In this document: positions 2,971-62,505 of the stretch, piece by piece
Numbering within the stretch: position 1 is the stretch's first letter
Layout of the letters: each line of letters opens with the position of its first letter
DNA from: Flavipsychrobacter stenotrophus
GTDB taxonomy: Bacteria > Bacteroidota > Bacteroidia > Chitinophagales > Chitinophagaceae
Length of the DNA: 64,000 nt
Reading direction: 5' to 3'
NCBI RefSeq assembly: GCF_002954265.1
Contig: NZ_PPSL01000006.1
Span: 1-64,000, forward strand
Position numbers and translations under genes: made by a program
Notes under the pieces: model-generated
Database searches by the model: none
What the model was told of the DNA's origin: nothing
What the model saw: the letters and a program-made list of their open reading frames with translations, nothing else

Positions 2971-3552
2971 CTATCTTTTAATGAATACCCAGCCTCTTTT
3001 TTCCTGATTATTATACTGTATTATGTAGTAATAGGTACCGTCAGGAAGCATATTGCCGTTCATGTTCTCACCATTAAATACTACACTTTTGTTGTCATAA
3101 TTATCCCTTTTCCACACCTCATTTCCCCACCTATTGATTATGGTTACAGTGTTTTTGGGGTAATCTATAAGCATCGGAACCGACCACGAATCGTTTATGC
3201 CATCCCCATTAGGAGAGAAGCCATTAAAAAATCCACTCTCCACCTCCGGAGTTCTGCGTTTCTTATCGGGTTGATGAAATCCTTGCGTGAGAAAGTAGTC
3301 CGGGGGCGCATAAGTTTCTCCCATAACCTCGCCTACCGTCCAGGCAACCGAAACCGTGGGGGAAGAGAAATAGTCTCCTTGCGATCCTACAACCGTGCGG
3401 GCCAGAGATTGTGCTTGACACACATTGAATACCGAACCTATTATTAGGAGCAGAATGATCTTTTTTATGTTGATGATATTTTTCGCTATTTCAGACAATG
3501 ATCGAAAAGATGCCCTGTCTTGCTCATAACTACACTTATCGTTGAGATACAT
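2971..3552 (-). CDS. Small exported protein with gliding-motility/T9SS-type C-terminal domain
   Basis: The C-terminal 85 or so residues match the gliding-motility-associated C-terminal domain (CHU_C/TIGR04131 type): GFSPNGDGINDSWSVP, then IINRWGNEVWKRDNYDN and a final PDGTYYYIIQY...GWVFIKR. In this family the domain directs export through the type IX system. The segment before it (VVGSQGDYFSSPTVSVAWTVGEVMGETY...LTQGFHQP) is the short conserved module often seen ahead of such domains. The start is uncertain. The hydrophobic signal core is KKIILLLIIGSVFNVCQAQ, but the codon where a Met would be expected (3466-3468) is ATA. The nearest in-frame ATG gives the 3552 start used here, with an unusually long 30-residue leader; the frame stays open to 3717. 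The collagen-like gene follows 15 bp downstream. Confidence 0.8.
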   Translation of the reverse strand: MYLNDKCSYEQDRASFRSLSEIAKNIINIKKIILLLIIGSVFNVCQAQSLARTVVGSQGDYFSSPTVSVAWTVGEVMGETYAPPDYFLTQGFHQPDKKRRTPEVESGFFNGFSPNGDGINDSWSVPMLIDYPKNTVTIINRWGNEVWKRDNYDNKSVVFNGENMNGNMLPDGTYYYIIQYNNQEKRGWVFIKR

Positions 3553-4245
3553 ATCTGCCAATACTTGTCCCTCATTACCGTCATGGGGATATTTATACAC
3601 GTTTAAAACATAAAAAAAATAAGAGTACATAAATATTTGATTATCGATATGATAAATGTGAGCATAAAGCCTAGTAGATACAACAACTAAGCCATCACCC
3701 ATGGACGCAATCAACAATGAATTAATGATATATTTAATAATGAAAATCTTCCTGATAACTCAAATACTGAAATCTGGCAATGTCATGGCGAACACAATTT
3801 TATTTATCTCAAAGTCCCCGGGCAATCTCCTGCTCTTATGCCACACCATCTTTTTCACCTTATTAAAATCGACCGGAATGATTTGTAATCAACAACATGA
3901 TAATTCACTAGCCACTTCTCCTTTTAGAAAATATCGGCCAGATACGAGCATAGCTCTGTACCATGATATATTTGCTTCTTCAATTGATATATTTGGGAAC
4001 ATGATTATCTGCATCTACAAATGAAATAACAGATTATTACCAATGGAAAATTGGAGTCAAGAATGATAGCATATGGTTAGACATGCACATCAGCACGAGA
4101 GCATTAGATTTAAATTGAAGAAGCAAGTGCTGTACTCCCGGAATCACCCCAAGGGTAACAGCCGGCACGTGAGTCACTGTCCCTGAGACTAATTGAACGG
4201 GAGATGCATGTAATAAGGAAGGATGAAAATAACACCCCAAAAAAA

Positions 4246-4659
4246 ATATCCACAGAAAACAACCCACCTCAAAGCCTTACCCACAAAGCCTTTCAGCCGA
4301 TTTTTTCGCAAATTTTGTGGATATGTTTATTTGCAGGGCATTTGCATGTGTATTAATTTAAATTAAATGAAAACCGTGTGCTCTTTGACATTATGAACCC
4401 TAATGAAAACAATTCAACAACCAATACTCTGGTAGAGACGCATTGTCATCCTGAGTTTTTATCGAAGGGTGCGTCTCCACAGCAGCAGGGCTACAAAACA
4501 CAAGGTGGAAGAAAAAGTGGAAGAAACCGGAAAAAAGTGGAAGAAAGTGGAAGTTTTCGGAAATTTGTTAAAACACCCTCAAACACTACACCACACTACA
4601 CTTCAGCCCAAACACACCAAACAAAACTTCCGTAAATAATAAAAAACTTCCACTTTTCG
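4246..4659 (+). repeat. Modular structured intergenic element, copy 1
   Basis: In order it contains ATATCCACA at 4246-4254, a 20-nt block at 4316-4335 identical to 57067-57086, TCTTTGACAT at 4382-4391 followed by TATGAACCC, a hairpin built from GAGACGCA/TGCGTCTC at 4435-4477, and a G-rich array of GTGGAAG units at 4504-4557. The array ends in AAAGTGGAAGTTTT, whose inverted copy AAAACTTCCACTTT lies at 4643-4656. The same parts in the same order recur near 57.1-57.5 kb. No protein-coding potential is apparent. Function is unknown. Confidence 0.6.
4435..4477. repeat. GAGACGCA/TGCGTCTC hairpin module with an inserted sequence in the loop
   Basis: The arms GAGACGCA (4435-4442) and TGCGTCTC (4470-4477) enclose a loop that contains GTCATCCTGAG...CGAAGG, resembling another common Bacteroidota repeat and suggesting a nested insertion. 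It is followed by CACAGCAGCAGG; a shorter copy at 54894-54915 is followed by the matching CACAGCGGCAGG. Confidence 0.6.
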
Positions 4660-54710: not shown

Positions 54711-54893
54711 CTATTTATGAGCAACCCGCACAGGGTCTGTTCGTTTTCGGTAAGTAACAACACTCGCTCATCACTCTTATTTTAAGAGGGCCCGATATTC
54801 GGCCGGCCCTTGGGCCAGTTGTCCAATGTCGAGCCTTCCCGCCGGTTCTCTTTGAGATACACTAACAACACACAGAAACAAAACACGTTCGTA

Positions 54894-54915
54894 GAGACGC
54901 AAGATTTTGCGTCTC
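54894..54915. repeat. GAGACGCAA/TTGCGTCTC hairpin module
   Basis: A 9-bp perfect stem with loop GATT, preceded by GTA and followed by CACAGCGGCAGG. It matches the larger, inserted copy at 4435-4477 (TAGAGACGCA...TGCGTCTCCACAGCAGCAGG). Confidence 0.65.
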
Positions 54916-55024
54916 CACAGCGGCAGGACAGAGCAGCAAGGTATCCATCACCAATGTTAGCCATTGTTGGTCTTCTGACCAACACACATCGGCCCGATTC
55001 TCTTTGAATACTTAACAACACACC

Positions 55025-55888
55025 CTACTCCTTCACCACACTATACACTCCTCGCTCACCACTACCATACTGCACCTGCAACAAATACACACCATTACTC
55101 AGACCCTCTATGCACAGCTCATTATCTCCTGCCTGTAGCCCACCATTCATCACCTGCCTGCCGGTTACCTCAAGCAAAGTATAAAAGGCATTAACCACAC
55201 TACAATTCACATGCAAAACACCTTTTGCGGGATTAGGAAACAAATAGATTGAAGCCGTGTTTATATTGCTTATACCGGTATGATCTACAGTTACAATATG
55301 CCCGGCAGCCGTTACAGAATCATAGCAACCACCCGCTGGCACTATACGTGCGGTAATAGTATCTGTACTAGCACCTTTTACGTAGCTTACAAATGGTACT
55401 GACGTAGTTGCAAACACACTACCATGGTTCATCCAGCGGATAAGGTAGCTGCCACCCGCACCACTCACCGTGGCAGTAATGGTTACTGTTGCGCCAGGTG
55501 CTGCAGTACTTAGCCCATTAAGCGAAATAGTTGGTATGCCATTCGCAATGGTGGTTATATGTACAGTATTGCTGGTGTCAGTAAATGCGCCATTACAGTC
55601 TACAAGGCTTTGCACTCTGCAGTTTATGGTATCACCATTAGCAGGTGTATAGCTATAGGTAGCATTGGTGGCACCTGTTATCAGTGTACCGTTCACATAC
55701 CAATTGTAACTTACTATACTATCTGCTCCGCTTACCGCTGCTGTAAGGGTTACAGCACTACCCACACATACGGTATCATTGGGGGCAGGTGTTATAGTGG
55801 CTACAGGTGCGGGTGCCATGCCCGCAAACCATACCTTACGCACACGGGCAGTATTAGCATCAGATATATAGATTTCCACAACCATCAA
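55025..55888 (-). CDS. NHL/T9SS protein, C-terminal part after a frameshift
   Basis: 287 codons in a frame offset from the upstream piece. The first residues in frame (EIYISDANTARVRKVWFAG) complete the sixth NHL blade of the upstream piece; the reading frame changes within a TATATAT stretch at 55864-55870, where one dinucleotide less than needed is present. Then come Ig-like domains (VCVGSAVTLTAAVSGADSIV, GTLITGATNATYSYTP) and a type A T9SS sorting domain (ASIYLFPNPAKGVLHVNCSV, ending QVQYGSGERGVYSVVKE). Without a repaired frame this half is not translated, so the protein would lack its export signal. Confidence 0.75.
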   Translation of the reverse strand: MMVVEIYISDANTARVRKVWFAGMAPAPVATITPAPNDTVCVGSAVTLTAAVSGADSIVSYNWYVNGTLITGATNATYSYTPANGDTINCRVQSLVDCNGAFTDTSNTVHITTIANGIPTISLNGLSTAAPGATVTITATVSGAGGSYLIRWMNHGSVFATTSVPFVSYVKGASTDTITARIVPAGGCYDSVTAAGHIVTVDHTGISNINTASIYLFPNPAKGVLHVNCSVVNAFYTLLEVTGRQVMNGGLQAGDNELCIEGLSNGVYLLQVQYGSGERGVYSVVKE

Positions 55889-56861
55889 ATGCTAAACCAA
55901 TAGATTTACTAAGCTGTGCTGCGGTAGCAACGCCCCCATCACCACCAGAACCGTTTACACCATTGCCAGCAATAGTATGAATTATACCTAACTGATCTAC
56001 TTTTCTTACTATGTGGTTTTGATTGTCAGCAATTATCAGGTTACCGGTATCATCTACATCTACGTCATAAGGGTCAATATTAGCAGTAGTAGCAGGAATA
56101 TTGTCTCCATTATACGAAATACCTGCATTTGTGCCTGCTACTGTTGTGATAATTCCACCAGTATTGACTTTAAATATTCTTGAATTACCAATGTCTGCTA
56201 AGTAGATATTACCTGTTGTATCAGAACAAAGACCAAAAATTCCACCAATACTAGAAGTATCTGCTAGACCACCGTCACTACTATAGCCAGCTATTCCATT
56301 GCCTGCAAAAGTCGATATTATACCCGTTGGGCTTATTTTCCGCACTTTACTACTAAAGTATTCAGCAACGTATAAATTGCCATATTTATCGAAACAAATA
56401 TCCTGCGGATCATTTAAAGCACTCGAAGTTGCAGGAATACCATCAATACCAGCTGCAAGAATGCCATTACCTGCTACGGTGGATATTATACCAGTTATTT
56501 TATCAATCTTACGTACCCTTGCTCCGTCATGCTCACATATATATAAGTTGTCTGCCGTGTCAAAAGCTATAGATGTCGGATGCTTTAGCATAGCTGTTGT
56601 CGCCAGTATACCATCTCCGTTATATCCAGCTGTTCCAGTCCCCGCAATAGTAGTGATATTTCCGGATATGTCTATTTTTCTTATTCTATTCCCTAGGTTT
56701 GATGCAATATAAAAATTTCCATATTTATCAAACGCTCCTTTGCTTGGATTAAGTAGTGACGCATTGGTAGCAGGACCGCCGTCACCCAAACTCGATCCAG
56801 AGCCAGCATACAACGTAATAATCTGCCCTGCACTTTTTTTCCCAAAAACAAACAACAACAA
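55860..56861 (-). CDS. NHL-repeat protein, N-terminal part up to a frameshift
   Basis: 333 codons from a TTG at 56861, carrying six NHL beta-propeller blades: GSGSSLGDGGPATNASLLNP, then DKYGNFYIASNLGNRIRKI, and so on to the last, GLAFDGCGNLYI, which is cut by the frameshift. The start is not reliable. In another frame the ATG at 56890 reads MNLYQLIILFCCCLFLGKK, which looks like a signal peptide; one extra T in the T-run at 56860-56863 would join it as MNLYQLIILFLLLFVFGKKS. The gene thus seems to have two frameshifts. TATCTTTG (complement of 56896-56903) is a promoter-like motif just before that ATG. Confidence 0.75.
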   Translation of the reverse strand: MLLFVFGKKSAGQIITLYAGSGSSLGDGGPATNASLLNPSKGAFDKYGNFYIASNLGNRIRKIDISGNITTIAGTGTAGYNGDGILATTAMLKHPTSIAFDTADNLYICEHDGARVRKIDKITGIISTVAGNGILAAGIDGIPATSSALNDPQDICFDKYGNLYVAEYFSSKVRKISPTGIISTFAGNGIAGYSSDGGLADTSSIGGIFGLCSDTTGNIYLADIGNSRIFKVNTGGIITTVAGTNAGISYNGDNIPATTANIDPYDVDVDDTGNLIIADNQNHIVRKVDQLGIIHTIAGNGVNGSGGDGGVATAAQLSKSIGLAFDGCGNLYI

Positions 56862-56895
56862 AACAGTATGATAAGTTGATAAAGATTCATATATA

Positions 56896-56903
56896 CAAAG
56901 ATA
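56896..56903 (-). promoter_or_regulatory. Candidate -7 promoter element TATCTTTG
   Basis: CAAAGATA on the plus strand reads TATCTTTG on the minus strand, a full match to TAnnTTTG. It lies 6 nt before the ATG at 56890, so the transcript would have a very short leader. No clear -33 element was found at the usual distance. Confidence 0.35.
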
Positions 56904-56924
56904 CAGGGTCGGTTTATAATTTTT

Positions 56925-56942
56925 CTCAGTATATATACTGAG
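56925..56942. repeat. Perfect 18-bp palindrome CTCAGTATATATACTGAG
   Basis: A perfect palindrome upstream of the NHL/T9SS gene and its -7-like element, in the place where a -33 element or operator would sit. It could be an operator for a dimeric regulator, or simply the edge of a repeat. Confidence 0.45.
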
Positions 56943-57657
56943 TATTTGTTTTTACTTGGTATTTTTTTGAACGTTTATAGCACTATAACAAAAAATATAT
57001 GTCACTTCAAATAACCCCACCTAACCCATTGATCCACCAAAACTTACACCCGGCTATTCACAAAAATGTGGATATGTTTATTTGCACGTCACAAAATCAC
57101 GCACTAATTTGCACCCAAAATGGGCACCTTGCCCACCGTTCTTTGACATCTATGAACCCCATCACACCAATCGTAGGGGCTGAAAATCTTCAGCCCTGTA
57201 GCAAAAACCTGCGTAACACATCTTCCTTATCCTGAAATCCTGACCATCCCGATTCAGACAAAATGTAAACCTATTTCGGGACGAGGCCCAACACACAAAC
57301 AAACATTGGCGGAAAAAACTGCGGAAAAGTGCAGAAAAACTGCGGAAAAGTGCGGAAACTGGCGGTTTTGAAAATCAGCCAAAACTCTTTACAGATAAGG
57401 CTTCTGGCGGAAACTCACGAAAAAAAACTGCCGGAAACACAAAAAAACCGCCACTGGCGGAAATTGCCAACCTAATGCCATTCTGAGTTATTACCAACGG
57501 GTGCGGCTCCACATCTTGATCGCACCGCGAATGTCAGCAAACAAACACAGGGGTTATCTAACCAACTTGTAAACCTATTTCGGGACGAGGTAGTGCTACA
57601 TCAGTTACCCAGGAAATGACTGGGTAAAGTGGGGCGCACTATATGAACAAAAAAAAA
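56943..57657. other. Long gene-free region holding copy 2 of the modular element
   Basis: No coding sequence is supported over about 700 bp. Apart from the modular element it contains a direct repeat of TGTAAACCTATTTCGGGACG (57263-57286 and 57568-57591) and a TTACCCAG...CTGGGTAA hairpin (57605-57627). Confidence 0.6.
57067..57465 (+). repeat. Modular structured intergenic element, copy 2
   Basis: It carries the 20-nt block identical to 4316-4335 (57067-57086), TCTTTGACAT (57140-57149) with TATGAACCC, a hairpin GGGCTGAA/TTCAGCCC (57177-57196), and a G-rich array from 57307. The array ends in TGGCGGTTTT (57360-57369), whose inverted copy AAAACCGCCA lies at 57444-57453. The order and spacing match copy 1 at 4246-4659 although the array and stem sequences differ. 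Confidence 0.6.
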
Positions 57658-62446: not shown

Positions 62447-62462
62447 AAAATAAAATATTAAC

Positions 62463-62505
62463 GCCTACTCTATATACCCTTTTCGGCTTACGGGTGCGTG
62501 TTGTT
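62463..62505. repeat. Spacer repeat in the unknown operon, copy 1
   Basis: GCCTACTC...CCC.TTTTCGGCT.AC.GGTG...TTGTT (plus strand) overlaps the 3' end of the upstream gene and lies 17 bp before the start of the following gene (62446). An imperfect copy is at 63121-63159, also shortly before a gene start. Confidence 0.55.

Follow-up and report, generated by a model that had tools for sequence, protein, structure and literature searches.

In this study, we report a dispersed, multicopy, non-coding element of Flavipsychrobacter stenotrophus, properties by which MITEs are also recognised, and propose that its copies are best interpreted as free-standing noncoding transcription units, about 40 in all, with antitermination of the rRNA type, a reading judged from sequence to which we give a probability of roughly 0.5. 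Two full copies lie in the window, the whole stretch of 64,000 nucleotides that was analysed. From 5' to 3', the element consists of an inverted-repeat module, promoter-like boxes, usually a hairpin, a boxA-like motif, GTAG-headed hairpins and a 3' repeat module. What was observed directly is its anatomy and copy number, the fixed spacing of its boxes, its retention at syntenic loci and the conservation of particular segments. A noncoding transcription unit is suggested by the order and strand coupling of the parts, from promoter through hairpin, boxA and further hairpins to a terminator-like module. The features identified in the window are as follows.

4246..4324, plus strand: copy 1, 5' module of type I, with ATATCCACA (4246-4254), core CCTCAAAGCCTTACCCACAAAGCCTTTCAGCC and TGTGGATAT (4316-4324); the layout is repeated in other copies and its position is fixed relative to the leader.
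4330..4360, plus strand: copy 1, promoter-like boxes, TTTG (4330-4333), N19 and TTAATTTA (4353-4360), spaced as in rRNA promoters.
4380..4400, plus strand: copy 1, boxA-like GCTCTTTGACAT and TATGAACCC, with no predicted hairpin before them; assigned from the 25-copy alignment and the rRNA leaders.
4432..4478, plus strand: copy 1, GTAG-headed hairpin GTAGAGACGCA...TGCGTCTCC, enlarged by an insert; assigned from its sequence and the family across copies.
4505..4657, plus strand: copy 1, 3' module of type A, with GTGGAAG at 4505, 4517, 4537 and 4547, a loop, CTTCCG (4627-4632), CTTCCAC (4647-4653) and TTTT; R2 match at 4518-4658 (E 3.9e-17) and pairing counts.
54840..54916, plus strand: second repeat family, CGCCGGTTCTCTTTGAGA (54840-54857), then a GTAGAGACGCA hairpin (54891-54916), not a copy proper; assigned from pattern matches and inspection of loci.
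56868..57077 (left limit approximate), plus strand: copy 2, 5' part, in which a type II module starts at about 56994 and closes with hairpin TATTCACAAAAATGTGGATA directly before the promoter; common to L138 (84.9% over 305 bp) and, from -93, to L142.
57081..57111, plus strand: copy 2, promoter-like boxes, TTTG (57081-57084), N19 and CTAATTTG (57104-57111); R1 match at 57072-57172 (E 3.6e-11).
57121..57159, plus strand: copy 2, hairpin TGGGCACCTTGCCCA (L002, p=0.004 against 500 shuffles), then boxA-like GTTCTTTGACAT and CTATGAACCC.
57173..57196, plus strand: copy 2, GTAGGGGCTGAAAATCTTCAGCCC hairpin, of a family with 39 genome matches.
57307..57465 (limits approximate), plus strand: copy 2, 3' module of type C, a GGCGGAAA/CTGCGGAAA array with a CCGCCA inverted part; weak R2 match at 57322-57459 (E 3e-4).

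A modular, structured, multi-copy intergenic element had been proposed in a sequence-only reading of the window, and genome-wide matches far above chance bear this out. The 20-mer common to both copies (4316-4335 and 57067-57086) and TCTTTGACAT together with TATGAACCC (4382-4400 and 57140-57159) were located as claimed, each with a chance expectation of at most 0.02, and the hairpins and G-rich arrays of both copies were found where they had been placed. The extent given for copy 2 (57067-57465) held the right parts and was misplaced at its left start, as the DNA common to L138 begins at about 56868. The stretch at 54845-54935 had been mistaken for a partial copy; it carries CGCCGGTTCTCTTTGAGA of another repeat, followed by a GTAG hairpin of the same kind.

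The search for further copies was performed on the host genome (5.43 Mb, 21 contigs), in which the window corresponds to bases 1-64000 of contig C13. With the 19-mer core and at most 2 mismatches, 12 matches were obtained against 0 for the reversed control, three of them (L005, L006, L008) having a variant leader without TCTTTGACAT. Model R1 was built from alignment A1, comprising 25 short-hairpin copies (22 from this genome, 3 from a MAG), with 8 long-hairpin copies left out, and recovered a dispersed family at 42 places in the host genome at E<=0.1 and 44 at E<=1. In this MAG, labelled Flavipsychrobacter stenotrophus, the core and boxA also occur together, in three records. When 38 genomes were scored with laxer filters, R1 matched 39 places in congener G198, 37 in G202, apparently the same MAG to judge from contig numbering and positions, and one, weakly (E 0.048), in G199, and none in the other 34 genomes, seven congeners among these; under strict filters, with 20 candidates scored per genome, the host genome alone matched of 195 family genomes. 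Model R2 of the 3' module, built from 37 B-type modules picked by eye (alignment A2), gave 57 matches in the host genome (G000), 52 in G198, 53 in G202 and 2 in G199, and none in the other 34 of the 38; with strict filters, 3 of 394 family genomes matched, all of the same genus. Among the genomes searched, the element is thus confined to a few species of one genus. Copy 1 had no match in plasmid or phage collections and the array pattern none in viral contigs. A viral link through the boxA 20-mer was rejected, its sole viral-contig match sitting in unrelated-looking high-GC DNA. Rfam 15 gave no match inside the element, either for the whole window at gathering score or for the loci of five copies at E<=1. 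Elsewhere in the window, a DUF805b RNA scored above gathering at 62462-62496 on the minus strand, and at locus L124 an Acido-Lenti-1 match (4531-4575, E 3e-6) lies about 1.5 kb from the element.

For comparison between species, 20 of the 39 G198 matches were fetched and read, one near a contig end being skipped. The 5' module is either of type I, ATATCCACA...TGTGGATAT around a 61-nt core, or of type II, a compact hairpin. The promoter-like boxes, TTT(G)-N19-TTAATTTG, are identically spaced in 60/60 copies of two species; these are the best 40 of 44 host matches and 20 of the top 21 out of 39 G198 matches to R1, a model that includes the boxes, so the copies were chosen for likeness. The -33 box carries the fourth letter G, giving TTTG, in just 21 of the 60. 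Both rRNA promoters before 16S in the host genome read TTTG-N19-TACCTTTG, with the same 19-nt spacing, and we take TTTG-N19-(-7 box) to be the Bacteroidota promoter form.

A boxA-like motif with at most 2 mismatches to TCTTTGACAT was present in 58/60 copies, mostly as G(C/T)TCTTTGACAT, and TCTTTGAC is invariant across alignment A1. The host's own rRNA leaders hold AGATCAATGGATCT and then GTTCTTTGAAAGATTGG before 16S, and GTTCTTTGACATATTGG in the spacer before a putative 23S gene. The boxA-like sequence matches this rRNA leader: GTTCTTTGACAT of copy 2 recurs letter for letter in the spacer before the putative 23S gene (L046), and copy 1 agrees at 11/12 positions. A minimal copy in G199 (L092, minus strand, about 1350-1660) has leader-like boxes close to a GTGGTAG array and lacks CTTTGAC. 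A leader peptide after boxA (ATGAACCC...) was rejected by eye, its frame shifting from copy to copy.

The hairpins before boxA vary in sequence and size (CAGGTGAAAACCTG, GGGCATTTTGCCC, CAGTACATATTACTG or longer inserts). A hairpin 5' of boxA reached p<0.05 individually in 12 of 33 copies (30 from the host genome, 3 from the MAG; Fisher 1.5e-11) and in 8 of 20 copies of G198 (Fisher 2.8e-7), these combined values being too favourable because plain shuffles were used on related copies. The remaining 21/33 and 12/20 copies were not individually significant, and no such hairpin was predicted in copy 1 (L001, p=1.0) or in L113.

On the transcription-unit reading, RNA polymerase would start at the conserved promoter, and the nascent hairpin and boxA would load a Nus antitermination complex as on rRNA leaders. 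Owing to this loading, the untranslated, hairpin-laden spacer could be read without Rho termination. Transcription would then end in the 3' module, through predicted pairing of its last two direct repeats with both inverted repeats, upstream of a U run. The unit may have spread as a composite MITE-like repeat, many copies being kept vertically thereafter. Its RNA, if it serves the cell, could possibly act as a scaffold or sponge for Nus factors. The fuller proposal holds that these noncoding RNAs, about 40 per genome, rRNA-like and subject to Nus antitermination, form a class specific to the genus, that their repeat-built 3' cassettes are interchangeable, and that they are retained because they serve the cell, for example by binding Nus factors or some other RNA-binding protein; it is tentative, and we would sooner doubt it than rely on it.

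Comparison of syntenic loci bears on vertical retention. In G198, 10 of the 20 copies retrieved have a host counterpart flanked by matching genes in conserved order and orientation; the match covers both sides at L103, L104, L112, L113 and L117 and one side at L105, L108, L118, L119 and L122. Ranked among 40 host copies, the syntenic leader (5' module and promoter) came 1, 1, 1, 1, 2, 2, 3, 4, 5 and 11; of the 12 pairs ranked, L116/L162 and L121/L139 (one shared flank, changed orientation; ranks 17 and 25) were dropped from the ten. Per-base alignment scores at syntenic loci were 0.60 for the promoter, 0.54 for boxA, 0.44 for the 3' module and 0.36 for the 5' module, against 0.13 for the upstream flank, 0.03 for the hairpin, -0.07 for the downstream flank and -0.12 for the spacer (n=10, but n=8 for module, spacer and downstream flank), with random DNA at -0.05 to -0.19. 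The parts on which a transcript would depend are kept, and the spacer and downstream flank turn over. Non-syntenic copies are nearly as alike in boxA (0.52) and module (0.41), so that homogenisation between copies could explain part of this conservation.

The foremost rival is a selfish MITE- or REP-like composite repeat without host function, in which promoter and boxA would be helpful or protective cargo and conservation would reflect copying and homogenisation. It is a possible reading, held with less than even confidence; it explains the dispersal and the mosaics equally well and is compatible with a transcription unit. Copying is suggested by a G198 group that shares one abrupt left boundary, with unrelated-looking DNA to its left: L107 and L109 agree at 93.7% over 682 bp, and L119 resembles each of them at about 85% over 567 bp. 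Tandem noncoding cassettes follow a single leader in L107 (two 3' modules) and L109 (three and a fragment), each cassette comprising a hairpin, GGGACGTATTCGTTTTG, a GTAAACCTATTTAGGGACGAGG-like stretch and a GTGGCAG module. Presence and absence at parE, other palindromic repeats inside the units and the lack of strict orientation relative to genes also favour a selfish repeat. Against it stand the ten retained syntenic loci with their high-ranking leaders and the sharply different constraint between segments. The assumed ends AAAACATATCCACA and CTGCCACTTTT are, by eye, not inverted copies of each other, the ends being uncertain since the G198 group has another left boundary. Nor was a target-duplication signal found in 23 copies (mean shared k-mer 3.30 against 3.47 shuffled, 170/200 shuffles at least as high; ends uncertain, in A/T runs). 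Of the identities that the sequence-only reading had offered, a noncoding RNA fits best, with dispersal like that of a non-autonomous repeat, and a transposon end found no positive support.

At parE, the element is present in the host and G198, and reading 850 nt upstream revealed none in G202, G199, G166, G089, G195, G196 and G200; in G197 the locus coincided with the end of a contig, and G201 gave no match. A clean empty site in G202 was rejected, as the intergenic DNA aligns too poorly to place an insertion. The gene preceding parE (L129, L163-L170) appears to be common to G202, G198 and G199 and absent from the host and, by eye, from other congeners, with ParE itself 87-98% identical. At L009 (host contig C14, near 484400), an ORF resembling an IS3-type orfA breaks up the copy a short way past boxA.

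The spacer hairpins carry a GTAG head before an imperfect palindrome, as in GTAG REPs, and five Y1_Tnp (PF01797) matches were found in the host genome. The GTAGGGGC type gave 39 matches genome-wide. For 29 of them an R1 leader lies on the same strand no more than 1 kb upstream, and counting the three variant leaders raises the leader-associated matches to 34; of the rest, 3 arise from reading these palindromes on the opposite strand and 2 have no such association. Three stems that differ completely had been cited as evidence of selection for structure. Their sequences do differ, but they belong to two GTAG-headed palindrome families (GTAGGGGCTGAA... and GTAGAGACGCA...), the member at 4432-4478 carrying an inserted stretch, and compensatory change was rejected. 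Selection for structure is nonetheless supported, by the hairpin before boxA, the stems of the 3' module and syntenic conservation. The second repeat, CGCCGGTTCTCTTTGAGA, gave 113 matches with at most 3 mismatches against 1 in the control; at 54840-54857 and about 54991-55010 of the window, and at 20 loci inspected, it shows hairpins drawn from several unrelated families and, after them, (CATC)GGGCCGGTTCTCTTTGAGA, and its CTCTTTGA tail is also boxA-like.

The direct repeats of the 3' module are GTGGAAG (type A), GTGGCAG (type B) or GCGGAAA (type C, with weak R2 scores), about 4-6 units of 7 nt, mostly 3-5 nt apart with a 10-nt period, followed by a loop and two inverted copies; 1-3 modules occur per copy among the copies read. 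Of 53 listed modules (from 57 R2 matches in the host), 43 follow a leader at a distance of up to 1 kb, without exception on the leader strand, and 10 have no leader within 1 kb. Conversely, an R2 module occurs within that distance of at least 35 of 44 leaders, always on the leader strand. Pairing was assessed in alignment A3, which holds 63 A and B modules of 77 after removal of L105, a near-duplicate, modules read on the opposite strand and cuts that were too long or too short. Covariation, whose absence would have told against the sequence-only reading, is present but modest: 87.4% of 1260 cells are paired (0/500 shuffles as high), yet pairs changed on both sides number 6 against 6.2 in shuffles (375/500 as high), so that much of the pairing signal is the A/B split. 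In a G199 copy, GTGGTAG and CTACCG bring in a third letter, along with its complement, where types A and B differ, the second inverted copy, CACCAC, matching incompletely. Mean folding z was -2.56 on the plus and -2.59 on the minus strand, with 44/63 modules below -2. On the plus strand the inner stem has 63 A-C mismatches against 21 G-U pairs, which fits the minus strand better, and the last direct repeat is GTAGCAG or GTGGCAA in 25/34 B modules, again pairing better on the minus strand.

Binding at the DNA level, by a nucleoid, replication or recombination protein recognising 10-bp-spaced GTGGNAG sites and their inverted copies with the leader as an accessory, is improbable. It would account for the 10-bp period and the nearly constant loop (about 63 columns, 37 copies), and for the finding that all direct repeats within a module change together, even those unpaired in the modelled structure. 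A TTATCCACA-like sequence in some 5' modules, presumably DnaA-box-like, would also fit. A strand-blind site, however, would not need to lie on the leader strand in 43/43 cases. Less probable still is a two-sided terminator or insulator, in which the 5' hairpin with a T-rich stretch and the 3' repeat hairpin with a T run would stop reads from both sides: many modules begin with A runs and end with T runs on the plus strand, folding z is equal on both strands, substitutions lean toward minus-strand pairing and right-hand genes were opposed in 23/32 cases of an earlier count with shorter flanks, but convergent gene pairs flank only 17/58 loci in the larger count and promoter, hairpin and boxA are left unexplained.

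Gene orientation was determined at 58 of the 60 loci, the left gene being 31 plus/27 minus and the right gene 25 plus/33 minus. A leader of the downstream gene is not supported, the right-hand gene being codirectional in 25/58 and, in the earlier count, 9/32 cases. Both window copies had been described as upstream of T9SS genes; they do lie on the 5' side of minus-strand T9SS-domain genes, but point away from them. Copy 1 neighbours CHU_C in 2974-3717 (minus), and copy 2 an NHL-repeat ORF at 55863-56861 (minus), with Por_Secre_tail in the overlapping ORF 55028-55888 (minus). These two overlapping ORFs (55028-56861), which hold the NHL repeats and the T9SS tail, may represent a single gene whose reading frame changes. 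A consistent T9SS-gene link was not found, neighbour orientation alone being counted at the other copies.

Among known systems, CRISPR direct repeats are about 20-50 nt long with unique spacers, and CRISPR arrays led by boxA have reportedly been described by Stringer et al. in 2020. The element, with units of 7 nt, has no CRISPR-sized repeats or spacers; it resembles boxA-led arrays in placing boxA before an untranslated repeat-rich transcript, as far as the available part of PMC7862264 describes them. The closest likeness of the leader is to rRNA antitermination leaders, in which boxB precedes boxA (available part of PMC10250234): TTTG-N19-(-7 box), hairpin and boxA-like G(C/T)TCTTTGA recur in nearly the same letters in the host's rRNA leaders, and in the accessible part of PMC5725501 the gamma-proteobacterial boxA consensus is GYTCTTTAANA, with A where the element has G. 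Unlike rRNA leaders, the element has no rRNA gene downstream and occurs in about 40 dispersed copies. By its own statement, the boxA survey in that part of PMC5725501 left non-coding RNAs out of consideration.

BrickBuilt of Porphyromonas gingivalis, in the portion of PMC4596501 available, has 19 intergenic copies in one strain, internal promoters and no transposase remnant. Both belong to Bacteroidota, are intergenic with a leader, direct-repeat array and tail, and have a limited host range; by that same portion, however, BrickBuilt has unspaced 23-nt repeats and inverted-repeat ends, whereas the element has 7-nt repeats at a 10-nt period, inverted copies and a boxA-like leader, and no unspaced 23-nt tandem repeats between leader and tail. 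Pneumococcal BOX, likened by description only from the accessible part of PMC3049150, is likewise modular and interspersed, varies in how many inner modules it contains and has a predicted RNA structure, but its boxA, boxB and boxC are module names and not Nus sites. GTAG-headed REPs, as covered in part by PMC3733652, share the GTAG head before a palindrome with the spacer hairpins, but the GTAGGGGC type occurs almost exclusively within the element, and in one orientation.

The element was not described among the literature matches listed, from a search that covered few subscription journals. To our knowledge, no other dispersed repeat has an rRNA-type promoter-hairpin-boxA leader, and if the proposed reading is true, this would be the first known to carry one, none having appeared among those matches, and would make it possible to test whether Nus factors serve many noncoding RNAs outside rRNA and CRISPR arrays. 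As a kind, the element stands beside BrickBuilt and BOX elements, and its new features are the boxA leader and the cassette arrays.
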